Shown here: positions 913-16,198 of the stretch, piece by piece
Layout of the letters: each line of letters begins with the position of its first letter
Numbering within the stretch: position 1 is the first letter of the stretch
NCBI RefSeq assembly: GCF_903903185.1
Contig: NZ_CAIUXT010000074.1
Coordinates: 1 to 64,000, forward strand
DNA: 64,000 nucleotides
Origin: an uncultured Rhodoblastus sp.
GTDB lineage: Bacteria > Pseudomonadota > Alphaproteobacteria > Rhizobiales > Beijerinckiaceae
Reading direction: 5' to 3'
Notes under the pieces: generated by a model
The model's database searches: none
Seen by the model: the letters and a program-made list of their open reading frames with translations, nothing else
What the model was told of the DNA's origin: nothing
Made by a program: the position numbers and the translations under genes

Positions 913-3900
913 TTAGGCCCCTTCCTCGCCTAATTCGCGATAACGTGGCTGAATGCCTTCGTCCCGAACCGGCGCTCCCCCCTGCGCCTCGGCGCTCCAG
1001 TCCGACGTCGCGCCAGCGCAGAGCGCGGCGTCCCATGCCAGGAAGGCGCGCGCCACGCGAACGACCATTCCGCGCGCTTCGGTCGGCGCGTCGACTTGGC
1101 TCAGCAATCGGAACATCCTTGGCAGGCGTCGCGCGCGGTCGGCGAACGGAACGAGAATTGTCCATGCTCCGAACAGGTCGCGCTCCATGCGCGCTTCGAA
1201 CTCCTCGCCAAACTCGCGCGTTCTGAACGCCATGCCGAGCAGGGTCTCGCGCGCGATCGCAACCAGTTCGGTCCGGCTCGACGGCTCGGCTTCCAGCCAT
1301 CGCTTGATCGCCGCTCTCAGCGGCCGATGGAACTCCGTCGTCTCTCCGCGCAACAACAGGATTGTTTCAGCGGGATCCGCCCTGGGGCCGATTTCGACGC
1401 GTTCGTCCCGCAGTTCGCTCAGCCGCTTGTTGAAGCTGGCAAGATCTTCGACCCGCTCGAACGGCAGCAAGAGAAGCCGCTGGTTGAAGCCGCCCTCCGC
1501 TTCCAGGAGCTTGTTGAAACGCGCCGGCCAATCAGGCTGCGCCACGAACAGCGCCTCGACATTGGGACGGAAAGTTCCCTTGAAGCCAAACAACAAGCGA
1601 TGCGTCAGATAGGCGCGCACCTGCGTTTCAATGACCCCGCGCGCCTCCAGCCATGCCGGCGGCGTGATCGGGCCGCGCTCGGGCGAGAAGGCTTCCGCAA
1701 CCGCCAGGATCGAAGGCAGGAGCAGCAAAGGGCCATTTACATTGATCCCGGCGACGGCCTCCTGCAACAGGCGCCGGTGCGGCTCGGACAGGGGTCCGGG
1801 TCTGGCGAGCAGCGCAAGCCGCGTCAGCCAGTAGAGGCGCCCGTGGATGATCTGGCGCGCCGCGCGATCCCCCTCGGCGAATTCGATCGCGAGCGCGTCG
1901 ATCGCCGCCGCGATGTCGACGTCTTCAGCATCCCATTGCGCGTCATCGGCGAGCGCCTGAATGACAAAGGTCGGCGGCAACCCGTCCGGCCGCGTCGGCC
2001 GGCGCCGGTAGAGCGCCAACGCCTCCGCCGCGCGCGCGCGCCTGACGAGCCGGCCGCCTTCTCCTTCGGTCTTGCCGTCGCCTTCGAGCCGGAGGCGCCA
2101 CTGCGCGTCGCTCTCGAAACCCTCGACGCCCTCCGGGCTCGCTTCCGTATTGAAGAGACGCGCGCGCGCCGCTTCGGACAGGTCTTCCAGCGCCGCGCCC
2201 AGCGTCGAGGCGGAAAGCGTCCTCCCGTCGCCACGCGGCAGCTTTTCCCCGATCATTTCCGCGTAATAGGAGGCGAGCGTTCGGTCGGCGTCATTCGACT
2301 TGCCGTTGTGATAAGCGAGTCCGGCGCGGCGAACCTTTTCGATGAGCGCGGCCTGTTCCGGGTTCGCCCGCATCATCGACAGGATCAGCCGGCGCACTTC
2401 GGGATGGAAGGAGATCTGGTCGGTCGACAGGTCGATTCTGGTCAGCCAGCCCGCCGCCGCGAGGCCCGAATAGACAGCTTCGGCGGAAACGGGACCGGGC
2501 GCGTCGTCGACCACGGGCGCCACCACCGCGTCGAGGATGTCCCTCGTGACGAAGGGCGGGACGCAGGCCGCGAGCACATAGGGCCGCGCGGCGACCGAGG
2601 AGAGATGCCGCACGACGCGTTCGGTCAGGTACCGCGCGGCGACGGCGCCATCGACTTTTCCGCGCGAAATCGCATCGACGAAACCGGGGCGCTCGGCGTC
2701 ATTCTCCCAGACCCCGGCGGCGATACGCAGCACGAGAGGCGATCGGGGCAGAACCTGCGCGGTCATCGCGGCGATCTTCGGATCGTCGACGCCCAGGGCC
2801 TGCAGCATGGCGACCGCATTCCTTTCGTCGAGGTCCGCCAGTTCGATCGGCGGCGAGACGCTCCAAAAATCAGACAGGGACGTCGCCAGCGTCTGAGGGC
2901 CAAGCGCGGCGGCGGGCGTGCGTCCGGCGAGAATGACGCGCAAATCCGCGACGCCCATCGACCCGCCGATGGTTTCGAACCAATCGCGGAGCACGGAGAC
3001 ATCCTCGGAACCGCGCGCGAAGATCAACTCCGCCGTGTCGATCAGCAGCACGAGCGGCCGCCCGGATGCGCAGACGCGACGCAACGCGTCGAATACCACC
3101 GATTGCAGGACGCTTTGCGTTTCCGTCGCGACGCTTTCGAGGCTCTCGAAGGAAGGCGCGGCCTCGAGCGTCAAGGATCGCCGGGCCGCGAGCTTCGCCG
3201 CCTGCCCGCGATGCGCGCCGATGCGCTCGCCAAGACTGACGATGGCGTCCTGCGCGGCGCCAGCGAGTTGGCGGGACCTTTCGCGCAACGTCTTCGCCTC
3301 TTCCGGCGACACGACGAGGCTCATCTGGCGGAACAGCGTGGTTACCAGCGCGACCGGATCGGCGGGATCGAATCCCGGCTGATCGCAGTCGATATGAACG
3401 AGCAGCGGCGGCGCCGGCAGACCTTGGAAGCGCCTCTCCAGGTGAGCGAAAAGCGTCGATTTTCCGGCGCCGCCGACGCCCCAAACATAGATGTAACGCC
3501 TGACGGGGAGACTATTCCCCGCCTCCAGAACCGCCGCCGGCGCCGTGGCGAATTCGACGAGTTGATCGAGTTCGCCTTCGCGCCCGAAAAAGGGCGCGGC
3601 CGTGATGCGGGCGATGTCGGCGTCCCGGCGGCGTCGGGCGAGCAGCGCGGCGACGCGTTCGCGCAAAAGTTGCGGATCGCCGTAGCCCTCGAAGTCGGGC
3701 GCCCAGGCCAGCGACGCCAGCAGCGCCGACAGACCGTCTTCGTCCAGGCGATCGATGGCGTCGGCCGATGGATCGCGGCGCGCTTTGAGCGCCTTGCGCA
3801 GGGGGTCGTCGTCATTGCCCGGCGAAGGTTCCAGCGCCGCTTCGAGTTCCGCCGGCGACGCCGCTTGAAGCGTCCGTCGCCGCACCGCGTCGCGGAGCCG

Positions 3901-4131
3901 CCATTTTCCGGGATGGACGATATTGGTTTCAACGTCGGGGGCGAGCGCCTCCAGCGTCTCCTCGCTCACCTGTGGCGCGAGGCTGTGCGGATCGGTCCAG
4001 CCGCGGACGGCCATGGCAAGGCGCAAATGCTCGGCCGTCGCCGCAGCCGGCGACGTTTCCGCCAAAGAGCCCGCGCTCGCCTCGAACCGCCCGTCGGCGA
4101 TGCTTTTCAAAATGTTGAGGTAGGCGATCAT
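913..4131 (-). CDS. Large STAND-like P-loop NTPase (1072 aa), third gene of protease/NTPase operon
   Basis: Walker A YVWGVGGAGKSTLFAHLE, Walker B-like RPLVLLIDTAELIF, long helical C-terminal region. Start overlaps the preceding gene's stop (ATGA at 4128-4131). Confidence 0.85.
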   Translation of the reverse strand: MIAYLNILKSIADGRFEASAGSLAETSPAAATAEHLRLAMAVRGWTDPHSLAPQVSEETLEALAPDVETNIVHPGKWRLRDAVRRRTLQAASPAELEAALEPSPGNDDDPLRKALKARRDPSADAIDRLDEDGLSALLASLAWAPDFEGYGDPQLLRERVAALLARRRRDADIARITAAPFFGREGELDQLVEFATAPAAVLEAGNSLPVRRYIYVWGVGGAGKSTLFAHLERRFQGLPAPPLLVHIDCDQPGFDPADPVALVTTLFRQMSLVVSPEEAKTLRERSRQLAGAAQDAIVSLGERIGAHRGQAAKLAARRSLTLEAAPSFESLESVATETQSVLQSVVFDALRRVCASGRPLVLLIDTAELIFARGSEDVSVLRDWFETIGGSMGVADLRVILAGRTPAAALGPQTLATSLSDFWSVSPPIELADLDERNAVAMLQALGVDDPKIAAMTAQVLPRSPLVLRIAAGVWENDAERPGFVDAISRGKVDGAVAARYLTERVVRHLSSVAARPYVLAACVPPFVTRDILDAVVAPVVDDAPGPVSAEAVYSGLAAAGWLTRIDLSTDQISFHPEVRRLILSMMRANPEQAALIEKVRRAGLAYHNGKSNDADRTLASYYAEMIGEKLPRGDGRTLSASTLGAALEDLSEAARARLFNTEASPEGVEGFESDAQWRLRLEGDGKTEGEGGRLVRRARAAEALALYRRRPTRPDGLPPTFVIQALADDAQWDAEDVDIAAAIDALAIEFAEGDRAARQIIHGRLYWLTRLALLARPGPLSEPHRRLLQEAVAGINVNGPLLLLPSILAVAEAFSPERGPITPPAWLEARGVIETQVRAYLTHRLLFGFKGTFRPNVEALFVAQPDWPARFNKLLEAEGGFNQRLLLLPFERVEDLASFNKRLSELRDERVEIGPRADPAETILLLRGETTEFHRPLRAAIKRWLEAEPSSRTELVAIARETLLGMAFRTREFGEEFEARMERDLFGAWTILVPFADRARRLPRMFRLLSQVDAPTEARGMVVRVARAFLAWDAALCAGATSDWSAEAQGGAPVRDEGIQPRYRELGEEGA

Positions 4132-6164
4132 CCCACCGCCTCCGCTAGGTCGGGGACCAGCATCCCGATGACAAGGAGCGCGGCTTCAGCCGTCGCAATG
4201 TTTGGCGCGGCGGCATGCAGCATCGCAGGGCTGTCGAACGCCTGCTCGGCCGCCGCGACCTCCTCGGCGCTGAACGCGGCGCCGTCGAGCCGACCGTTCG
4301 TCCGCAGAAAATCGGCGACATCGCGCCCCGTCAGATGACCAAGCGTCGTCAGGTCGATGATCCCGCCCCTGGTGTCGGGATCGGCCTCCAGAGCATCTTC
4401 GAGCCTGACCCGGCTGTCGCGCGACAAACCGCAAATGAGCAGGCGCGACCAGGGTGCTTTCGCCAGCGCCAGCGTCAAATGCAGCCAGCCCTCGTCATCA
4501 TGGACGAAGGCGTCGGCGTTCTCGCCTGCGTCAATGGCTACGAAGAGCGGATGCGCCTGACGATCGTGCGCGCGGTCCCGCTGGCCCCAGCGCGCGAGCG
4601 CGGCGACGATATCCTCGACCGTATCGTAGCGAATCTGGCCGTCGCGCGTGCGCGTTGCGTCTTCGGCCCGCAACTGCGCTGCAAGCGCCCTGGCCATGTC
4701 AAGCAGGCTCTTGTCCGGCGACATGCCCTCCAGTCTGAGGAGATCGCGCTCGGGGCTCGCGAGCGCGGCCTCGAGCAGATTGATGGAGAAGCTCTTGCCG
4801 CAGCCCGGCGGACCTTCGACGGACATGATCCTTTCCGCCAGAGATCCATCCGACGCGGTCGCCGTTTCGAACCATTTGTTGAGATTGCGCCGCGCGATGT
4901 CTTTCGCGCCCAGAATCGGGTGGCGTGTGAACGGAACGGTCGCCGCATCGGGGGGGGCGCCGACAATTTTCTCAAAGGCGCGGCTCCAGGCCGACCCGAG
5001 GGCCTCGCCGCAAAGCTGCTGGCCTCGCCGTCCCAGGCGCTGCACCAGCGACGCCTTCTGAAGGAGAAGCCGCGGCGCCGCCTTCGCCGCCGCCAGGGCG
5101 GCCTGCGCCGCGATGACGTTCTTGATCGCGCACAGAAGAATGGCGCGATTGGCCTGCCCGCCGGGGGCGCCCGCCCAGGGGATGGAGCCTTCATGCAGGC
5201 CGATGGGAAGAGCGCCCTCGCCGGAGCAGCAACTCCCGCTCATGCCCGGTACGGCGTTCATGGAATGGATGACGCGAGACCCCCCCGGGATGACCTGCAT
5301 CAGCGAGTCCGCGTCCATCGCCGGATCGCTGCCGCCGCGATAACCGATCACGAAAGAGAGCGGACCCTTGCTCGGGTTCTGGACGCCGTCGATGGGCACG
5401 GGCTTTGCGCCATAAATGGTCCGATCGAGTTTCAGCAATGCGAAGTCGAGATGCTTCTGCGGCTCGTCTTGCGCGTCATAGGTCGAAATCAGATGGTCCT
5501 GATTGCTGAAATAGGGTGGCGAGGAGGCGAGGAGGTTCTTGACCGACGCAATCTGTTCGCCGCCCTCCGTTTCTGGAAAAACCAGCTGAAGGTCGCCCGC
5601 CAGTCTTGGACCATATTCGACGCGCGCGTCGGTCTCGCGCTTCTCCAGCGCGACATGGGCGCAGGTGAGCGCCTCGTCCTTTCCGACGAGGAAGGCCGTC
5701 CCGAGATCACCGCCCGCCGCGCGCCGGACGCGCGCTGTCGCCTTGAAGATCTCGGAGAGCTTGCCCAGGATGCGCGGATTCGCGAGGCCCCTTGCCGAGT
5801 TGAGCACCGTATGCGGCGTTCCGCCGCCGCCGATGCGCTCGACGATCGCGTCGGCTTCGGACTTGTCGCGTTGATAATCATCGACCTCGGCATTGGCGAC
5901 CGCGACGCACAATTCTCCAAGCAGACTCGATTTCCGCGCGGCGACGCAGAGCGCCAGCATCGAGGCGAAAGGCTCGCCGCGCGGATCGGAGGGATGGTCG
6001 AGCAAGGCCACTTCGACTGCGGGCATCCCTGCGAAACGCCTTTGCAGCATCCTGTAAATCGCCCGAAAGATCGACAGATCGAGCCGCGTCCACTCGGCGA
6101 GAATCCTTGCGTCGTCCCGCATCGCCGCCGCCATTCCGGCATCGATCGTCGAAGCGTCATTCAT
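4128..6164 (-). CDS. Trypsin-like serine protease fused to P-loop NTPase (678 aa), second gene of operon
   Basis: Protease: GTAFLVGKDEALTCAHV (His), HLDFALLKLD (Asp), PGMSGSCCSGEGALPIGLHEG (Ser). NTPase: VEGPPGCGKSFSINLLEA (Walker A), HPLFVAIDAGENAD (Walker B-like). Small helical N-terminal domain. ATGA overlaps at both ends. Confidence 0.85.
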   Translation of the reverse strand: MNDASTIDAGMAAAMRDDARILAEWTRLDLSIFRAIYRMLQRRFAGMPAVEVALLDHPSDPRGEPFASMLALCVAARKSSLLGELCVAVANAEVDDYQRDKSEADAIVERIGGGGTPHTVLNSARGLANPRILGKLSEIFKATARVRRAAGGDLGTAFLVGKDEALTCAHVALEKRETDARVEYGPRLAGDLQLVFPETEGGEQIASVKNLLASSPPYFSNQDHLISTYDAQDEPQKHLDFALLKLDRTIYGAKPVPIDGVQNPSKGPLSFVIGYRGGSDPAMDADSLMQVIPGGSRVIHSMNAVPGMSGSCCSGEGALPIGLHEGSIPWAGAPGGQANRAILLCAIKNVIAAQAALAAAKAAPRLLLQKASLVQRLGRRGQQLCGEALGSAWSRAFEKIVGAPPDAATVPFTRHPILGAKDIARRNLNKWFETATASDGSLAERIMSVEGPPGCGKSFSINLLEAALASPERDLLRLEGMSPDKSLLDMARALAAQLRAEDATRTRDGQIRYDTVEDIVAALARWGQRDRAHDRQAHPLFVAIDAGENADAFVHDDEGWLHLTLALAKAPWSRLLICGLSRDSRVRLEDALEADPDTRGGIIDLTTLGHLTGRDVADFLRTNGRLDGAAFSAEEVAAAEQAFDSPAMLHAAAPNIATAEAALLVIGMLVPDLAEAVG

Positions 6165-9037
6165 GAGAACAGGCCACCGAATCCCGGCAGGGCGTCTTTC
6201 AGCGCCGGAAACGAAAGCGCGAAATTGCTGTCGCTGTCATAACCCGTGAAATGCAGCCCGAATCCTGGCGTATCCGCGTCCTTGAACGCGAAGAGCAACG
6301 ATCCGGAAGCGCCCTTCAGCGTCGTGGCGTCGTGGCCGATCGTGTTCTTGAGCGTATCCCGGACGTCCGAGCCGAGCGCCCGGGAGTAGGCGCCCGGCGC
6401 CAGCCGCTTCACGCCGAAGCTCCCGCCAAACAGCTGGGACGCAACGAAGCCCCAGTCGATCTTGTCCGAAACGCCTTCGCTGCGCGCCGGCGGACCAGGG
6501 AAGCCGATTGTCGCCAGCGTGGGTTTTTCACCGGTTACATATTCCGCCGCTGCCGACAGTTTGGCGCGCGTGTAGGGCGCGGCGGGCCCCCCGGTGGGCA
6601 AAGGCTTCCCGTCGACCGAGTCGCCGAGCTTCAGCAGCACCGCGTCGATGAAGCCAAACCCTGGCCCGGCGCGCGTCGGGTACACGGCCTCGACAATCTT
6701 GAAGCGACTGAAGTCCGCCCGGCCTGTTTCTCCGAGGAAATCGATTTCGAGTCCGCTCTCGATGGCGGCTCCGCCCGGCTTGTCTACGGCGAGGACGGGG
6801 TAACTCCGGCGCGCCATCGCGAGCACGTGGAAATTGGTCAGCACCCAGGGGCCCTGAGCGTCAACCAGCGTTCCCGTCCCGCAGTAACGATTGGCGTGCC
6901 CGCCGCTCGGCTGAATCCGACCCACCAGCGCGGCCACGGCCTTCAGTCCGTCGCGGCCCCCGACAAGGTCGTTGCGCCATCCGCGGATCAGCGGGTTCGC
7001 TTCGTCGATCCAGTTTTCCTTGATCATGAAGCTCGGCCGCGACCCGTCGGCCTTGATCACGGCCTCCATCGCCGCGACATCGTCGCCGGACAGGACCGCA
7101 GCCGGATCGATGACCTTGCGCAGGCCGGCGGCGCCATGCTCGCGCACAATGTCGAGCGCCCGCTCAAAATCCGCGCGGTCGGCGATTTCGCTCTCCGGCA
7201 TGTCCTTGAATAGCCGCTCGACCGACTTTTCGAATTCGTCCGCGCTCGGCAGATCCTCGCCCGTCGACTCCAGCGCCGCGCGCTCCGCCCGCGCGCCGGA
7301 CGACAACGCCTTGCCCATGCTGAGCGCGCGCTTCACCGCGTCGATGCGCGCAACGAGGGATGTGTCCTGTTCCGCCCTCGGACGCGGGATGGCCGGCGCG
7401 GCGGGAAAAGGCGCGGCGCCGGGTCTGACGATCGGAGGCGCATCGAGCGCCGCGCGGACCGTCGGCGTAAGCGTCGCTTCCAGCTCTTTCGAAAGCGTGA
7501 CGGGCGCCGTCGGGTCGAGACGGCGCGCCAGCAGCGCCGCGGCAAGTTCGCCGCCATGGGCGAGCAGGGCGTCGTCGGCCATCCCCGGATCGGCGCCGAT
7601 CGCTTCCGCGACGAAAACGCGCATCTCCTCGGCCGGCGTACGCGGCGTCGCCGCGACGGGCGCCTCGACGCCGCGGCCAAGATCGAAAGGCGCCTCGATC
7701 AGAGCCAGTGCGTCGATCACGCCGCCGCCCATATTGACGCCGTCCCAACCCGCCGGTCGTCTGGCGCTGGCGCGCGCTATGCGGCGAAACATGGTCTGAA
7801 GCGTCTCGCCCCGGGCCTCGGCCTCATCGATCAGCCTTTCGCGGCCATGATGCGCGATCCAGCAGGCCGCCGCGCCTGCGGCGAGCGCGACGGCGAAACT
7901 CGTGCCCTGGCCCTGGCCGACGCCGTCCTTCTCAATCGTCGCGCGATAGACGTTCTGCGCCGGCGCGGCGAATTCGACCTCGGGTCCCGACGAGGAGCCA
8001 GGCCATTTCTGGTCCTGCGCATTGACGCCGGCGACCGCGATGCACGCTTCGAGGCGCGCCGGGAATACGACGAGGCCGACGCAATTGCCAGCCGCCGCCA
8101 TGACGATCACATGACGCTTGACCGCGCGTTCGATCGCCTCTCTCAGGGGCGAAAACGGCAAAGGCGGACCGCCAAGCGACATGGTGATCACCTGCGCGCC
8201 GTTCTCAACCGCCTTGTCGATCGCCGCCGCGATGGGAATTTCCTCGTGCAGCCAGACGCTGCGAATGGCGCGGATCGGCAGGTGACGCGCTTTCGGCGCG
8301 CTGCCGATAAACGGGTCGCCCGGGCCGGTTCCGCGGCTGACGACGACGCTCGCCGTTCCGGTCCCATGTCCGGGATTGAGCGCGAAACCGGATTGCAGAG
8401 GATCGGTGGCGTCGTTCGCCGGGCCGTCGCCCAAAGTGTTGAAAGCGGCGACGACATCGACGCCCGCGAGTTCCGGATGTTTGGTTATCCCCGTGTCCGG
8501 TTGCGCGATGATGATTCCTTCGCCGCGCGCCGGCCGCCCGAGCGCCTCGGAACGCGCCCAGGCGGCGAAAAGATTCATGCCTTCGAGCGCCCAGCGCGGC
8601 GGAAGCGCCGGCTCCGCCGGACTCCAGCACCCCAGCGGAAAATTGTCGAGGCCTTCGAGATTTTCCTGGCCCGGCTCGCGCGGCGTCTGATCCGGCGCGG
8701 CGACGCGCGGCAGATCGGGTTCGACGAAACGCGCTCCCGTCGCCTTGGCCAAAGCGCGGCCCAGTTCATGCGCCTGGTCGGGTCGCTGATAGGCGCGCGC
8801 AAGCGAGAAGGCGCGCCCGGAGAATTCCAGCACGCCGATTCCTTGCGGGAGCGCTGTCAGTGCGAAGGGCTCGTTGGGCAAGCGCCGCCTCAGCGCCTCG
8901 CGCGCGGCTTCGAGGCCGCCTTCGTTGGAAACGACGAGAAAGCGCGCGGGCGGCGTCCTGGATTGCGCCCCGTCCGCGCGCGGATCCAGTGTGCTGTCTA
9001 TCAGGCCGCCAAGCTCCAGGGAGTCCGAACCCGTCAT
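6161..9037 (-). CDS. Dual protease: subtilisin-like (S8) domain plus C-terminal trypsin-like domain, first gene of operon
   Basis: S8: IIIAQPDTGITKHPEL (Asp), NPGHGTGTASVVVS (His), AAAGN (oxyanion Asn), GQGTSFAVALAAG (Ser). Trypsin-like: GTGTLVDAQGPWVLTNFHVL (His), FIDAVLLKL (Asp), LKGASGSLLF (Ser). No signal peptide. ATG at 9037 is preceded by GAGGAG; the ORF track begins at an upstream TTG (9052). Confidence 0.87.
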   Translation of the reverse strand: MTGSDSLELGGLIDSTLDPRADGAQSRTPPARFLVVSNEGGLEAAREALRRRLPNEPFALTALPQGIGVLEFSGRAFSLARAYQRPDQAHELGRALAKATGARFVEPDLPRVAAPDQTPREPGQENLEGLDNFPLGCWSPAEPALPPRWALEGMNLFAAWARSEALGRPARGEGIIIAQPDTGITKHPELAGVDVVAAFNTLGDGPANDATDPLQSGFALNPGHGTGTASVVVSRGTGPGDPFIGSAPKARHLPIRAIRSVWLHEEIPIAAAIDKAVENGAQVITMSLGGPPLPFSPLREAIERAVKRHVIVMAAAGNCVGLVVFPARLEACIAVAGVNAQDQKWPGSSSGPEVEFAAPAQNVYRATIEKDGVGQGQGTSFAVALAAGAAACWIAHHGRERLIDEAEARGETLQTMFRRIARASARRPAGWDGVNMGGGVIDALALIEAPFDLGRGVEAPVAATPRTPAEEMRVFVAEAIGADPGMADDALLAHGGELAAALLARRLDPTAPVTLSKELEATLTPTVRAALDAPPIVRPGAAPFPAAPAIPRPRAEQDTSLVARIDAVKRALSMGKALSSGARAERAALESTGEDLPSADEFEKSVERLFKDMPESEIADRADFERALDIVREHGAAGLRKVIDPAAVLSGDDVAAMEAVIKADGSRPSFMIKENWIDEANPLIRGWRNDLVGGRDGLKAVAALVGRIQPSGGHANRYCGTGTLVDAQGPWVLTNFHVLAMARRSYPVLAVDKPGGAAIESGLEIDFLGETGRADFSRFKIVEAVYPTRAGPGFGFIDAVLLKLGDSVDGKPLPTGGPAAPYTRAKLSAAAEYVTGEKPTLATIGFPGPPARSEGVSDKIDWGFVASQLFGGSFGVKRLAPGAYSRALGSDVRDTLKNTIGHDATTLKGASGSLLFAFKDADTPGFGLHFTGYDSDSNFALSFPALKDALPGFGGLFS

Positions 9038-9626
9038 CCAGCCACTCCTCAATAAATCAATAAATTAAGGGCGTCTCAACGAAAGAAAAAGCCGGAGATT
9101 TACTGAATGTCTCCACCCGAACTAGATATAATGATGGCCCAATATGACGCTCCTGACAAGCGGCAAGGCGGATACTGTCGATAGCGAATCAAATTGGCCG
9201 GATTTGGTGGCGCCTCAAATATCCGAGAACGGGCTTATGGAAACTGGATAGATCGATAATTGGCTTTTCTGTTGCGCAGGCGAAGCTAGCGTGATCCTGC
9301 CGGCGCAAGTACGGCCGGCTAACCGGGATGATTCACAGCGTGTGATTTTTGGGGTGGCGGACATAGCTTAAGGCCATGATACCGCGTAGGATTCGGGCGC
9401 CTAAGCCAACCCTTCACGCGTTTCACGCCAGCCACGCCCGCCATGATCGAAAATACGATTCTGCCCTTCTCGTTTCCAGCCGTCGCGCGCAAGAAAGTCA
9501 CAACTGATTTCGACGGCGGTCGGCTCACCTAGGCAATCAATTCAATTTTACTAAAAAGATCTGAATTACCTATGGTCATTCACCACAGGCGTCATCGACA
9601 CGCAACGTTGCGGCTGATTTACAAAA

Positions 9627-12600
9627 TCAAGCCATATTCCGCGCCGGGGCTTTCGCCAGAGCTTCGACCAGCGCCGCGTCGAGTTTGACGGCGTCGATTT
9701 CCTCGACGCGCGGTCCGGAAGTGTAGACCAGAAAGCAGCGGATGTTGCGGCCCGGATAAAGCAGCGCTGCGGCGGCGCGATAGAGCGCCATTTGCGCGAC
9801 ATGGGCCGCGGATTGGGCCGGCGGCGTGGATTGGGCCGCGCCGGTCTTGAAATCGGCGAGCCAGACCGCGTCGCCCTGTTCGGCCAGCCGGTCGATGGCG
9901 CCGGCGATCTCGACAAAGCCGCCGCCGGGCTTTTGCAACCGCGCCGCGATGCGCGCCTCGGCGACGGCGTTTTCGCCAAACAAAGGCGCGAGGCGCGGAT
10001 CGTCGAGCACGCGAAAGACCTGGGTTGCCAAAAGCGCCGCCCGGTCCGGCTCGATTTTTTGCGCCGCCAGATCGCGCAAAACCGCATCGCGGCGCAAAGC
10101 CGGCGCCAACGCCGGAACGAACTGGAACAGGCGGTGCAATTGCCGCCCCTCTTCGAGCGCCCGCAGACGGGTCGCCGCCATGGCGCCGCCCTCGGCAAAA
10201 TCCTCCTCCGCGCCATCGAGCGCGCCGGAGGGACGCAAGGGGGGGGCGGCGGAAACTTCCGCCGGCGCGGGCGCGAAAAGCCAGGAGGGCGGCGCGGGCG
10301 GCGCGCCGGCCGGCGCGGGCGCCACGGCGGGATCGGGCGGTTGGGGCAGGAATTCCGGCCCAAAGCGCAACACCTTGTCGTCGCCGCCCCAAGGCGCCGG
10401 CGCGACAAAACTCTCATTGGCCAGCGCCGTCGCGATCATCGCCCGCCAGCTTTCCGGCGAAAGCTCCTTCTTGCCGCGATGTCCCGCGATATAGAGCCGT
10501 TCCTCGGCGCGCGTCATGGCGACATAGAGCAGGCGGCGATATTCCTGCGCCGCCGCCTCGCGTCGCCCCTCCCGCGCCCGCGCGACGACCGCGCAATCGC
10601 TCGCCCGGTTGGGCGACCACAGCGGAAAAATCCGGCCGTCCAGGGCCGTCGCGGCAAAAAGCTTGCCGTCATGATGGCCGCCCGGCGCGGCGCAGGTGTC
10701 GGGCAGAAAAACGATCTTGGCTTCGAGCCCCTTGGCGGCATGGACGGTCATCACCCGCACGTAACGCTCCGACAGGTCCATATCGCGCTTGATCGAGACG
10801 TCGAGCGCTTCGACCTCGGCGAGAAAAGCCCCGAGCGAAGGCGCGCGTTCGCGCTCATGCGCCAAAGCGAGGTTGAGGAATTCGTCGAGCGCGTCGCCGG
10901 CCTCCGGCCCCAGCCGGGCGAGAAAGGCCCGCCTGCCGCCGCGCGGGCCGAGCAGGCGCGCAAAAAAGGCGAAAGGCGGCAAGGCGCGGCCCATGTCGCG
11001 CAACAGATCGAGCCTGGCGCAGGCCGCCTGAACCTTGAGATCGCCGGACGCCAGCATCGCCTCGTGCAGCGAGCCGGCGCGCCTTGGCGCGATGGCGATG
11101 AGATCGTCGTCGTCGAAGCCAAACAAAGGGGTTTTCAACACGGTCGCCAGATTGAGATCGTCGGCCGGCATCAAAGCCGCGCGGCCGATGGCGACAAGAT
11201 CCATCACCGCGATATGTTCGGCAAGTTTCAGACGATCGGCGCCGGCGACGGGGACGTTTTTTTCCTTGAGCGCCCGGATCATCGCCTCGAAAAACGCATC
11301 GCGCCGGCGCACCAGAATCATGATGTCGCCGGGACGGACCGGGCGGCGCTTGCCCTCCGCCAGCACGGTCTCGCCGGAGCCGGGTTCGAGCCAGCGGCGG
11401 ATGGTTTCAGCGATTCTCCGCGCGCTCGCCACGGGAGGGTCGGCCTCGTCGGAATAATCGAGCGGCAGTTTCCAGTCGCGCGGCTCCTCCTGCTCCGCCC
11501 GCGCGAGCACGTCCCAGATTTCGACGCGCGACGGCGCATCGCGCTTGAGCGCCTCATGGACGGTGTTGACATGATCGGCCTGCGCCGACAGGCCGCGATA
11601 ATTTTCAGGATAGGAGAATACCTTGTCCACCGCCGCCAGCACGCCGGGCGCCGAGCGGAACGACAGGGTCAGTTCGACCGGCTCGAAACGCTTGCCGGCG
11701 TGCGTCGCGCGGCGCTGGAAATCCCCTTTCATCCGCGCGAAAAGATCCGGCGCCGCGCCCTGGAAGGAAAAGATCGACTGTTTCTCGTCGCCCACCGCGA
11801 AAAAGCTGCGATTGGCCCGGCTCTGCCCGGCGCCCGCGAAAAAATCCTCGCAGATGCGGGTGAGGATTTTCCATTGCGCGGCGCTGGTGTCCTGCGCTTC
11901 ATCGACCAATATGTGATCGATGCCGGCGTCGAGTTTCTTTAACACCCATTGCGCCGAGGAACGGTCGAGCAGGCGCTGGGTGAAGGCGATGAGATCGTCG
12001 AAGTCGAGATATTGCCGCTCGGCCTTGAGCCTCTCGTAACGATCGAGAATGGCGTTGACGATCAGGCTCAGGCTCAGCGTGCGCTCCGCCGTTTCCGCCG
12101 CCTTCATCTTTTCGCGCATCCGGATCAGCCGGACCTGTTCGTCCTCGAGTTCGCGCAGCAACCCGGGGTGAGACTCGGCCAGCTTCTTGTTGAGAAGCGT
12201 TTTCGCCGGCTCGCCTTGCTGGGTGAAAAAGATGGCGGTGATTTTATCGAGCGCCTCGTCGAAATTCTTGCCGAGCCAGTCCGCATAGGCTTGCGAAAAC
12301 AGCACGGCCTTCTTGGCGTCCGTGCTGGTTCCGCCGACCAGCACGCTGGCCAGATCGGGCCAGCGCGCCGGCGCCAGACCGCCTTCGAGCGTGTCGCGCA
12401 GGACCGTTTCGGGCGTGTCGTCGGGGCCAAGCCCCAGCGTCAGTCTCAGTGCCCTGTCAGCGTCCGATGAAGCGGCGGCGCGAAACATCGGCCTTTGGCG
12501 CAATGCCTCTTCGAGCAGCTTTGCGAAGACCAGTCCGGCGTCCTCGGCGATCCGCTCCAGCGCCGCCGCCATTTTCCCGTCATGGCGCGCCCGCGCCAGC

Positions 12601-13100
12601 ACGTCCTGCCTGGCGCGGGCGATCAATTGCGCCTGTTCGACCTCCTCGACGATCGAAAATCCCGCCGCGACATTGGCCTCGAAAGGCGCGGCGTGCAGCA
12701 CGCTTTCGCAGAAGGCGTGCAACGTCTGGATCTTTAAACCGCCCGGCGTCTCGACGGCGCGAGCGAAAAGTTTGCGCGCAGAATCGAGCTGGCTTTTTTC
12801 ATCGGGCCGTCTGGCGCCGGTCGCCTCGATGGCGCTCGCCAGCCTTTCGTCATCGAGCGACGTCCATTCGCCCAGAGTCTTGAACACCCGCTCGGCCATA
12901 TTGGCCGCCGCCGCCTTGGTGAAAGTCAGGCACAAGATTCGCCCCGGCGCGAAATCCGCCAGCAGCAGGCGCACCACCCTTTGCGCCAGCACATGGGTCT
13001 TGCCCGAGCCGGCATTGGCCGAGACCCAGGCAGACAGATCGGGATCGGAAGCCATGGCTTGAAGCGCCAGCGTCGATGACGGAATTTTCGGCGCTTTCAT
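9627..13100 (-). CDS. addA: Double-strand break repair helicase AddA
   Basis: LSAWVSANAGSGKTHVLAQRVVRLLL, UvrD-like motifs (DEAQDTSAAQWKIL, VMTVHAAKGLEAKIVFLPD), C-terminal nuclease region. Start MKAPKIPSS overlaps the addB stop (TCAT at 13097-13100). Confidence 0.95.
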   Translation of the reverse strand: MKAPKIPSSTLALQAMASDPDLSAWVSANAGSGKTHVLAQRVVRLLLADFAPGRILCLTFTKAAAANMAERVFKTLGEWTSLDDERLASAIEATGARRPDEKSQLDSARKLFARAVETPGGLKIQTLHAFCESVLHAAPFEANVAAGFSIVEEVEQAQLIARARQDVLARARHDGKMAAALERIAEDAGLVFAKLLEEALRQRPMFRAAASSDADRALRLTLGLGPDDTPETVLRDTLEGGLAPARWPDLASVLVGGTSTDAKKAVLFSQAYADWLGKNFDEALDKITAIFFTQQGEPAKTLLNKKLAESHPGLLRELEDEQVRLIRMREKMKAAETAERTLSLSLIVNAILDRYERLKAERQYLDFDDLIAFTQRLLDRSSAQWVLKKLDAGIDHILVDEAQDTSAAQWKILTRICEDFFAGAGQSRANRSFFAVGDEKQSIFSFQGAAPDLFARMKGDFQRRATHAGKRFEPVELTLSFRSAPGVLAAVDKVFSYPENYRGLSAQADHVNTVHEALKRDAPSRVEIWDVLARAEQEEPRDWKLPLDYSDEADPPVASARRIAETIRRWLEPGSGETVLAEGKRRPVRPGDIMILVRRRDAFFEAMIRALKEKNVPVAGADRLKLAEHIAVMDLVAIGRAALMPADDLNLATVLKTPLFGFDDDDLIAIAPRRAGSLHEAMLASGDLKVQAACARLDLLRDMGRALPPFAFFARLLGPRGGRRAFLARLGPEAGDALDEFLNLALAHERERAPSLGAFLAEVEALDVSIKRDMDLSERYVRVMTVHAAKGLEAKIVFLPDTCAAPGGHHDGKLFAATALDGRIFPLWSPNRASDCAVVARAREGRREAAAQEYRRLLYVAMTRAEERLYIAGHRGKKELSPESWRAMIATALANESFVAPAPWGGDDKVLRFGPEFLPQPPDPAVAPAPAGAPPAPPSWLFAPAPAEVSAAPPLRPSGALDGAEEDFAEGGAMAATRLRALEEGRQLHRLFQFVPALAPALRRDAVLRDLAAQKIEPDRAALLATQVFRVLDDPRLAPLFGENAVAEARIAARLQKPGGGFVEIAGAIDRLAEQGDAVWLADFKTGAAQSTPPAQSAAHVAQMALYRAAAALLYPGRNIRCFLVYTSGPRVEEIDAVKLDAALVEALAKAPARNMA

Positions 13101-16100
13101 CCCTCGTCTCCGCCGGTCGCGTCCGCGCCCGAAGCCGACCATTCGCGGGTGCGCGCCAGATGATCGAAATCATTGTAGCGCGCGGCAAATTGCGGGTAGG
13201 GCCGCGCCGGATAGCCCTTGCTCAAAATGCGGAAGTCGTTCAGCAGGCCGATCAGCTGGGCGAAATGCCCGGCGATCAGATCGGCGAAGGTCCCCTTTTT
13301 CGGTTCGTCGAGATTTTGCGGTCTGGTCTTGTCGCCGCCGAGCGGCAGGTAAAAGGCCGTCTCGACCTTGCGTGGGCCAAGGCCGCGAAAGGCCCCGCGC
13401 TCCATCATCGCCGCCTCCAGCGTCAATTGCGGCGCCCAGCCGGCGCGCACCTCCTTGTTGGAGGGCGGCTTGCCGGTCTTGTAATCGACGATGACCGCGC
13501 CGCCGTTGTTCAGCAATTCGATGCGATCGGCTTCGGCGGTGAGCGAGAATGTCGAGCCGTCGGCGAGCAGCAGCGACAAATTGCCGCCAATCTCGACGAC
13601 GATTCTTTCGATGTACGGACGCCGCCTGGCCTCGAAGGCCAGATAGGCCTCGAGCCCGCGCACCAGACGCGGCCAGCGAAAGCTCAGGAACTCCGCGTCG
13701 CTTTCGAATTCCGCAAGCTTTTCCCTTGCGGCGACGAGGAGAATTTCGCGGGCGCGCTCCGGCAAGACGCCGCTCTCATGCGCGCGCACGAATTCTTCCA
13801 GCACTTCATGAATGGCTTCACCGATTTCGCGCGGTCCCGGATTGGCGTCGAGCCCGGGCATGGGCTTCAATTTCAGGATATGTTCGGCATAGATCGCATA
13901 GGGGTCGCGGCGCAGCATTTCGATGCGCGTCACCGAAAGCCTTTGCGGACGCAATTCGAGCGGCGGCCGGGGCTCGGGACGGGCCAAAGGTTTTTCCGCC
14001 GGCGCGGCGTCGATTTCTTGCGCCAGATCGAGCCAGCGCGCGCCACGCTCCCGAAGCCCGGAGAAGATCTCGGGGCCGGCCAGAGCCTCGATGCGCAGCA
14101 GAAAGCGCGAGGACGTCGTCGGCGATCCGCCGCGCTTTTTCGCGCGGGTCAGAATCACTTCGGGAGCGCCGAACGCCTGCGCGAAATCATGCGCCGTCTG
14201 GCCGATGCGCCGGTCGGGCGAAGACAGGCCGAGCGCCGCGCGAAATTGCCGGTTGAGGAAGGAATCGGTCTCGCCGCGTGGCGGCCAGACGGTCTCGTCC
14301 AGTCCCGCCAGCACCATCAGGTCGGCGCCGATCAGGCGCGCTTCGAGCAGGCCGAGAATTTTCAGACGCGGATGGGCGCGCGCCGGGCCGCGCAGGATGC
14401 GCTCGCCGATCAGCGCGTCGAAAAACACCGCATAGCTTTCGCCGTGAAAGGTGAAAGCCTGATTGGCGGCGGCGGCCAGCTCCTCGAACATCGCAGCCAA
14501 AGCCTCGCCGTCGGCGCCGCCGGGAAAGGCCTGCTCGTCGCCGGCGACGATCAGGCCCAGCGTCTTTCGATGGGCGTCGAGCCAGGGTTTGAGGTCCGTC
14601 TCGCCGGCTTGCGCCAGAACCCGAAGCGACGCGAAAGCCATGTCAAGGCTCCGCGCGAAATCTTCCAGCGCCGACCAGTCGGCGTCGGAAATTTCCCTTT
14701 GGCGCGGATGGGCGTGGCGGTCGGCCGCCGCAGCGCGGGCGGGCGCGACGCAATCGGCGAAAGGCGGCGCCTGAAAGCCGGAGCGCAGCACCCCGATTTC
14801 GAACAGGGCGCAAAGCCTTTGCGCCCGCGGCCCGAACCCGAGCGAAAAATCGGGATGGGCGAGCAAAGGCGCCCAGTCGTCGGCGCCGCCGCACAGCGCG
14901 GCGAGCGCCAGCCGCGCCAGCACGCCGGCGCGCGAAGCGCCGAGCGGCGAGCCGCCGGAATCGTCGATCTCGACGTTCCAGCGCAACAATTCCGCGCGCA
15001 CGCGCTCCCCCAGCCCCCGATCCGGCGTCACCAGCGCCGCTGTGCGGCCCGGCGTCTCCAGCGCCTCGCGTAGCGCAATCGCGATCGCCAGCGCCTCCTC
15101 GCGCTCGCCGTCGGCCTCGATCAGGGCGACCTCGGCCAGGGCCGCCGACACTTCCCTTGCGTCATTTCTGGCCCGCCAGAGCGGCCAGAGGTCGGTGCTG
15201 TCGGCGGGCCGGAAAGCCTCGCAGAGGAATATTTCGCGCGCCGCCAGCCGGGGCGCCCTTTCGCCAAGCGCCACGACATTTTCGCGCGCGACGCCGATGG
15301 TTTCGATCAGGCGCGCGAGAAAAGCCTGCGGATGGGTGGCGCAGGGCTCCTTGGCGTCCCGGATCGCAGCGAAGGATGGGTCGTCGAGAGTCTGGTCGAG
15401 ACCGGGCAGCACCACGGCGCCGTTTTGCGCATGGGCGATGGCGGCGAGCAGCCGCGCGGTGACGATGTTCGAACCGGTCGAACCGATGGCGACGACCGGC
15501 GTGGAATCGCGCCCGACCGCCTCGATGGCCCGGGCGATCAGCGCCTGCTGGCGCGCCGCCGGATCGACAAAGCCGCGCTCGCTCTGGATTTGCGGCCAGC
15601 TGGCGATGGCGATGTCGAGAAAGCGCAAGGTGATGCGCCAGTAATCGTCGAAATCGCCGCCGAGCGCCTCCAGCCCGCGCCAGGCGACATTCTCGACGAT
15701 CATTTCGTCGATCAGCGCCGCCAGTTCGCCGGACAGGTTCCAGGCGTCGGCGGGATGCGTGGCAACAAGCAGGCTTTCCTCGGCGTAGCGCGCCTCCCCA
15801 TTTGCGTCGATGGAGACGATGGCTTGCCGGAGGCTGCGCCCCCATTTCAGAATCAGTTCGCCCAAAATCATCCGGCGCTCCATGTCTCCCACGGCGCGCG
15901 GAAAATCGGGGTCGAGCGGATTGTCGAAACCGGCCTCCCCGCTCTCGCCGTCGAGCGCGCCAAGGGCCAGGATGTTGGGCAGCAGCATGGCCGGGGCTCC
16001 GGCGCAGCGCGCCAGTTCCGCCGCCAGCGCCCGGCCGGCGCGCCGCGTCGGCACATAGATTTTTGCCCGGGCCAGCGCCAGCGGGCCGGAAGCCCGGTCG

Positions 16101-16198
16101 AGACCGGGAACGATGTTTCCATCGAGAAATGCCTCAGCGAAAGTCGCCAGAAAGGGCGCGCCCGGAGCAATGGTGAAAACACGCGGCGTCACGGGCAA
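13097..16198 (-). CDS. addB: Double-strand break repair protein AddB
   Basis: 1033 aa; characteristic alphaproteobacterial AddB sequence (ARAKIYVPTRRAGRALAAEL...), directly upstream of and overlapping addA. Confidence 0.93.
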   Translation of the reverse strand: MPVTPRVFTIAPGAPFLATFAEAFLDGNIVPGLDRASGPLALARAKIYVPTRRAGRALAAELARCAGAPAMLLPNILALGALDGESGEAGFDNPLDPDFPRAVGDMERRMILGELILKWGRSLRQAIVSIDANGEARYAEESLLVATHPADAWNLSGELAALIDEMIVENVAWRGLEALGGDFDDYWRITLRFLDIAIASWPQIQSERGFVDPAARQQALIARAIEAVGRDSTPVVAIGSTGSNIVTARLLAAIAHAQNGAVVLPGLDQTLDDPSFAAIRDAKEPCATHPQAFLARLIETIGVARENVVALGERAPRLAAREIFLCEAFRPADSTDLWPLWRARNDAREVSAALAEVALIEADGEREEALAIAIALREALETPGRTAALVTPDRGLGERVRAELLRWNVEIDDSGGSPLGASRAGVLARLALAALCGGADDWAPLLAHPDFSLGFGPRAQRLCALFEIGVLRSGFQAPPFADCVAPARAAAADRHAHPRQREISDADWSALEDFARSLDMAFASLRVLAQAGETDLKPWLDAHRKTLGLIVAGDEQAFPGGADGEALAAMFEELAAAANQAFTFHGESYAVFFDALIGERILRGPARAHPRLKILGLLEARLIGADLMVLAGLDETVWPPRGETDSFLNRQFRAALGLSSPDRRIGQTAHDFAQAFGAPEVILTRAKKRGGSPTTSSRFLLRIEALAGPEIFSGLRERGARWLDLAQEIDAAPAEKPLARPEPRPPLELRPQRLSVTRIEMLRRDPYAIYAEHILKLKPMPGLDANPGPREIGEAIHEVLEEFVRAHESGVLPERAREILLVAAREKLAEFESDAEFLSFRWPRLVRGLEAYLAFEARRRPYIERIVVEIGGNLSLLLADGSTFSLTAEADRIELLNNGGAVIVDYKTGKPPSNKEVRAGWAPQLTLEAAMMERGAFRGLGPRKVETAFYLPLGGDKTRPQNLDEPKKGTFADLIAGHFAQLIGLLNDFRILSKGYPARPYPQFAARYNDFDHLARTREWSASGADATGGDEG

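Follow-up and report, generated by a model that had tools for sequence, protein, structure and literature searches.

The coupled operon and its subtilase-trypsin protein

The window (the whole stretch of 64,000 nucleotides that we analyzed) carries on its minus strand a translationally coupled three-gene operon encoding an S8-trypsin protein (P1), a helical-trypsin-NTPase protein (P2) and a STAND/NLR-like NTPase (P3). ATGA overlaps are found at both joints, P1/P2 and P2/P3. No nuclease gene lies in the operon of the window, and the contig ends 912 bp past P3, so that another gene might follow farther downstream. The addA and addB genes are located directly upstream on the same strand (window 9627-16198); a link of the operon to addAB was set aside because related loci do not share that position. 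The features are as follows.

9045..9050, minus strand, ribosome-binding site GAGGAG, read from the sequence 7 nt before the ATG of P1
9035-9037, minus strand, ATG start codon of P1
6161..9037, minus strand, P1, S8 subtilase-trypsin protein of 958 aa and first gene of the operon (open reading frame, Pfam, 12 full-length homologues, AF2 model)
8717..8947, minus strand, predicted prodomain of P1, about aa 31-107 (AF2 secondary structure and Foldseek)
7799..8524, minus strand, S8 subtilase domain of P1, aa 172-413, with D181, H224, N318 and S380 (Pfam, PDB subtilisins, alignment)
6938..7690, minus strand, helical spacer of P1, aa 450-700, with a disordered stretch at aa 536-594 (AF2 pLDDT <50)
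6287..6880, minus strand, trypsin-fold domain of P1, aa 720-917, with H737, D798 and S911 (Pfam, PADLOC, PDB profile, alignment)
4128..6164, minus strand, P2, 678 aa, with a helical N-terminus, a trypsin-like protease and a P-loop NTPase-like C-terminus
913..4131, minus strand, P3, STAND/NLR-like NTPase of 1072 aa with a long C-terminal region

The original prediction placed two unrelated serine protease folds, each with a complete catalytic set, in one non-secreted polypeptide, and Pfam, profile comparisons and the AlphaFold model of P1 (mean pLDDT 76.8) bear this out. Pfam Peptidase_S8 matches aa 172-413 (E 4.8e-25), the modeled domain resembles subtilisins with a TMt of about 0.84 in Foldseek, and both the Asp/His/Ser triad and the oxyanion Asn of the S8 family are in place. 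A further Pfam match, to OPT (E 0.004), was rejected as a chance overlap with the S8 core. The linker, foreseen at about 250 aa, spans roughly 250-300 aa. Inspection of the N-terminus and a hydropathy scan revealed neither a signal peptide nor a transmembrane segment, and the protein is apparently cytoplasmic.

For the second domain, Pfam Trypsin_2 scores just under its cut-off (27.0 against 27.6 bits, E 8.5e-6), a weakness offset by the agreement of PADLOC, a V8-type PDB profile and the AlphaFold model. PADLOC model PDLC03010 covers residues 600-955 (E 5.2e-92), and a nine-sequence profile finds V8 protease and other glutamyl endopeptidases as its best matches in the PDB (E about 1e-9). The structure prediction proposed as a check on the C-terminus did not fail to give a trypsin fold: residues 700-950 are modeled as a beta-rich domain which, together with the triad and the profile, points to a chymotrypsin fold of the Trypsin_2 / V8-like kind. 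Just past this domain, H929 in GLHFTG is invariant in the alignment and aligns with the substrate-binding GIHWGG of V8, suggesting that P1 may prefer Glu. PDLC03010 carries the label 'nacht', which looks misleading since its match is the trypsin half of P1 (window 6164-7240).

All seven catalytic residues (D181, H224, N318, S380, H737, D798 and S911) are invariant in 12/12 full-length homologues, P1 counted in, the others being 31-55% identical to P1. At such identities the residue pattern is not a matter of chance, and both active sites are under selection; judged by this conservation, both protease sites are probably functional.

The original prediction had missed an inhibitor-like prodomain in P1 as well as the two coupled genes downstream. 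The N-terminus of P1 (about residues 31-107) is modeled as strand-helix-strand-strand-helix-strand, resembling the I9 inhibitor prodomain of subtilisins. The region has no Pfam match, and the assignment is supported by Foldseek, which matches P1 over 430 columns to pro-subtilisin E in its unautoprocessed state (3whi). Since the modeled subtilase thus has a pro-subtilisin-like N-terminal domain of its own, the S8 part may mature without the trypsin domain.

P2 contains a trypsin-like region (aa 155-311) with an intact triad (H170, D240, S309) and a C-terminal P-loop region with the Walker A motif GPPGCGKS. N-terminal helices appear in its AF2 model, a weak one (pLDDT 61). With the E threshold set at 1, Pfam finds neither bDLD2 nor EAD1 in P2, an hhalign comparison with the bDLD2 group was empty, and no CARD was identified, Foldseek of this weak model returning only the trypsin fold among the matches listed. 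Pfam matches of P3 to AAA_16/nSTAND1 are weak, and its Walker A (GVGGAGKS) and Walker B (LLID) motifs are intact, as in an NLR-like STAND NTPase. With two NTPase proteins in the operon, the likeliest role of P1 shifts from a self-contained zymogen, as first envisaged, to a tier of an NTPase-triggered protease relay.

Related loci and the NucA nuclease

We searched genomes at three taxonomic levels (order, 298; class, 385; phylum, 399), together with one genome-contig scan and a plasmid collection, and retrieved 12 S8-trypsin proteins, window included; a phage collection gave one weak match, to the S8 part only. The operon is spread over Alphaproteobacteria, more distant Proteobacteria and conjugative plasmids. 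The full S8-trypsin / trypsin-NTPase / STAND arrangement is found in Ancylobacter polymorphus (L014/L015), G106 (L018), the complete genome G873 (L040), a Rhizobium phaseoli conjugative plasmid (L035), a Ruegeria pomeroyi megaplasmid (L036) and a Polaromonas plasmid (L037). A further copy, in Sinorhizobium meliloti (L034), has a truncated third gene: on this plasmid the STAND NTPase gene is reduced to fragments (L034:13677-14634), the S8-trypsin and trypsin-NTPase genes being intact.

This distribution bears on whether P1 could be a housekeeping or secretion-linked protease, for example of the mycosin- or PatA-like maturation type. NCBIfam mycosin and PatA models do match the S8 part, yet far under their curated cut-offs (133 against 279 bits and 41 against 421), and we rejected membership in either family, the similarity being confined to S8. 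Matches to the P1-type S8 subfamily are sporadic, occurring in 9/298 order genomes, and the operon travels on plasmids. No type VII or cyanobactin genes accompany it, no signal peptide precedes P1, and no peptide precursor or secretion gene was seen beside the operon in 12 loci. We regard a housekeeping or secretion role as highly improbable.

Three loci (L016, L020 and L039) have S8-trypsin genes with no adjoining P2 or P3. These would suit a self-contained zymogen in which the main task of the trypsin is cis activation of the subtilase (or vice versa), with P2 and P3 as incidental neighbors, as would the two intact and co-conserved sites of P1, its flexible linker at 536-594 and its prodomain-like N-terminus. 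Against this, the P1-P2-P3 order and the tight overlaps are kept in several loci from different families and on plasmids, and loci of this kind can also encode S8 and trypsin separately (S8 alone in L021; trypsin alone in L024 and L026), so that a closed cis-acting unit seems unlikely. At L016 the genes clustered with S8-trypsin encode a caspase-domain protein, another S8 protease and an AAA protein resembling ClpB (L016:5924-17688), and the 681-aa protein encoded upstream has no Pfam or NCBIfam match.

Several loci bring the two proteases together with a nuclease. A trypsin-NucA gene is divergently adjacent in L015 (Ancylobacter) and in L021, where the S8 protease is a separate gene, and solo NucA genes lie near the S8-trypsin loci L018, L020 and L037. 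In both L022 and L023 a single polypeptide of 1,278-1,310 aa combines trypsin, NucA and S8. After the fusion gene come a solo trypsin, then a trypsin protein at the place of P2 and a protein in the STAND position; the P2-position protein of L022 bears bDLD2 (Pfam, E 1.8e-38). As the same modules are split into genes at different places, S8, trypsin and NucA would belong to one pathway by the Rosetta-stone argument. In the trypsin tree, the P1 trypsin groups with solo trypsins and those of trypsin-NucA proteins, and the P2 trypsins stand separately.

The STAND-position protein of L022 ends in a GAAD adaptor domain (L022:1618-5235; Pfam E 2.1e-16), a link to GTPase-centered conflict systems. At L017, a trypsin fused to a PLD-family domain is divergent from the S8-trypsin gene (L017:11424-14237), an apparent effector swap for NucA.

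We then compared the S8 subfamily with NucA across the order. Endonuclease_NS (PF01223, NucA) genes are present in 38/298 order genomes and in all nine that encode a P1-type S8 protease, which represent nine genera (9/9 versus 38/298, hypergeometric p 3.6e-9, kinship ignored). The association persists among the unlinked cases (3/3 with NucA, p 0.0012, kinship again ignored). Such co-occurrence suggests that the S8 subfamily and NucA work together; computed with phylogeny ignored, it is no proof of interaction.

The genome of the window is one of these cases. Its sole PF01223 gene encodes a trypsin-NucA protein on contig C120 (G000:C120), unlinked to the operon, which rules out a NucA hidden in the window. 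There the trypsin-NucA gene (734 aa) sits beside an nSTAND1-WD40 protein, in a cluster that also encodes a solo trypsin of 367 aa and a 1040-aa protein joining caspase and trypsin (L025:3269-15539). On the same contig, a gene that looks by eye like a calcineurin-like phosphoesterase is followed after 22 bp by a P1-type trypsin (L026:2149-4638), possibly another effector-protease pair.

Outside the order, NucA is absent from the complete genome G873 and from the plasmid records of L035 and L036 (for which the plasmid records alone were considered), and L035, L036 and L040 have no effector gene near the operon. Together with the nuclease-free operon of the window, these cases favor a reading in which the P1 subtilase would itself be the killing effector, unlocked by its own trypsin or by P2 and degrading essential host or phage proteins with no need of a nuclease. 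In the L022/L023 fusions the position of the S8 domain is like that of an effector, a PADLOC 'subtilase' model matches the Ancylobacter homologue, and the endonuclease activity of LypC, discussed below, is dispensable. Conversely, the presence of NucA in every order genome with a P1-type S8 suggests joint work, and the fungal S8 protease HET-Q2 acts as an activator rather than an executioner. We hold a subtilase effector to be a real possibility, if short of probable.

Comparison with known protease-based systems

The closest predicted relatives are the NucA-trypsin 'System 3' operons of Alphaproteobacteria, which encode trypsin, NucA, S8 and bDLD2-trypsin-STAND proteins (Kaur et al. 2020 eLife, PMC7159879). 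In these, trypsin and S8 domains can flank NucA in one polypeptide, and a cascade of proteolysis has been proposed to deploy the nuclease (PMC7159879). The original prediction called two serine protease folds in one protein unusual; the fusion is real, but S8 plus trypsin in a single polypeptide was already known from the NucA-trypsin systems (Kaur et al. 2020). The operon of the window shares with System 3 the alphaproteobacterial bias, several trypsin-like peptidases, the joining of S8 to trypsin, a trypsin fused to a STAND NTPase, and the proposed cascade; the domains of P1, P2 and P3 give the System 3 combination of trypsin-like peptidases, S8 being optional, encoded alongside a trypsin-STAND protein in one operon. 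It differs in having no NucA at the locus, trypsin-NucA being unlinked at G000:C120. Moreover, the S8 domain of P1 is joined directly to trypsin with no nuclease between them, and neither bDLD2 nor EAD1, which a subset of the System 3 loci carries, was detected in P2.

LypABC of Caulobacter crescentus, which controls gene-transfer-agent (GTA) lysis in that organism, consists of LypA (CARD-trypsin-ATPase), LypB (NLR-like) and LypC (trypsin-endonuclease); mutants show that lysis depends on both active sites of the trypsins and on the NTPase, the endonuclease site being dispensable (PMC13236601). P2 resembles LypA and P3 resembles LypB, with P1 in the place of LypC. In P1, however, an S8 protease replaces the endonuclease, and the trypsin domain is C-terminal rather than N-terminal as in LypC. 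P2 has retained a Walker A motif, which is missing from LypA, and, compared with the CARD-bearing LypA, has N-terminal helices, a trypsin and an NTPase region in a model of pLDDT 61 with no CARD identified. The operon could instead be a domesticated lysis-control module for gene-transfer-agent release and not a phage defense, LypABC being by architecture its closest experimentally studied relative. Carriage on conjugative plasmids argues instead for mobile conflict cargo, and P1 is by domain content not an orthologue of LypC; we consider this reading distinctly unlikely.

CARD-NLR / bacterial gasdermin systems (as described by Wein et al. in 2025) reportedly combine an NLR-like NTPase, an adaptor-bearing trypsin, a second trypsin and a swappable death effector. 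The operon shares the NLR-like NTPase, a trypsin that may bear an adaptor, the second trypsin and a presumed swappable death effector, but no gasdermin gene was seen beside it. DefenseFinder presumably includes a CARD-NLR subtype with a subtilase, which would be the nearest filed class for the operon. If that subtype has the same architecture, the operon simply belongs to that class.

Proteolytic unlocking of a proenzyme is also a feature of Hachiman, AVAST and Lamassu pairs, in which, as here, a trypsin-like protease is coupled to an effector enzyme; trypsin has been shown to activate the pro-nucleases of Hachiman and AVAST (PMC12799240). Their nuclease is of the MBL fold, not S8 or NucA, and the protease is fused to the sensor side, not to the proenzyme. 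In fungi, the S8 protease HET-Q2 activates the gasdermin HET-Q1 (PMC10989679), and P1 resembles it as a cytoplasmic S8 protease that may trigger regulated cell death. The likeness is limited to the S8 domain: HET-Q2 has no reported trypsin domain and acts on a gasdermin substrate.

Taken together, the operon is best called a variant of the System 3 / CARD-NLR kind, built from homologous parts. We rate it a variant because neither NucA nor bDLD2/EAD1 was found at the locus and no CARD was identified.

A proposed intracellular protease relay

We think it fairly probable that P1 serves as the protease on the effector side of an intracellular conflict system that consists of three proteins, brings about cell suicide and belongs to the NucA-trypsin / CARD-NLR (LypABC-like) kind; the operon is probably a cell-killing defense system. 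This relay proposal draws on the cascade proposed for System 3, the LypABC mutants and the pro-nuclease unlocking in Hachiman and AVAST.

Beyond the observed domain content, intact conserved sites, operon, recurrence and genome-level NucA co-occurrence, we infer the following sequence of events. P3 would act as the NLR-like sensor NTPase, oligomerizing upon an infection-related signal, presumably set off by phage. P2 would be the adaptor and initiator protease, comparable to LypA, clustered by P3 through its N-terminal helical domains so that its trypsin is switched on by proximity. P2 would then cleave and activate P1, or P1 would cleave itself, and the P1 trypsin domain may free or stimulate the pro-subtilisin. 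Activated P1 would serve as an amplifier or executioner, releasing a trypsin-NucA nuclease whose gene lies in cis or at another genomic site, degrading host proteins itself, or both; where present, trypsin-NucA would be its likeliest downstream target. The most elaborate version is a multi-tier serine-protease relay in which NLR oligomerization activates a Glu-specific P2 trypsin, the P1 trypsin unlocks the pro-subtilisin and the subtilase frees a trypsin-caged NucA in trans; we put it forward tentatively, as rather unlikely in its entirety.

Several points weigh against assigning P1 an effector-side role in such a conflict system: the operon of the window has no nuclease and NucA is absent from G873 and from the L035/L036 plasmid records; the LypABC endonuclease site is dispensable for lysis; the P2 N-terminus has no bDLD2 match by sequence or profile, in a weak AF2 model; and the S8-trypsin genes of L016, L020 and L039 have no neighboring P2 or P3.

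The fusion of two proteases is genuine and informative, but it falls inside an already predicted class. We found no report of a reconstitution of the cascades predicted by Kaur et al. A subtilase standing in the place of the nuclease, and conserved there in different families and on plasmids, offers direct access to the substrates of these proteases, and the co-occurrence of S8 and NucA in the order, unlinked cases included, makes the release of a caged nuclease by the subtilase-trypsin protein testable. If the multi-tier relay is true, bacteria would have an equivalent of the initiator and executioner caspases, made of serine proteases throughout and with its last tier acting in trans.
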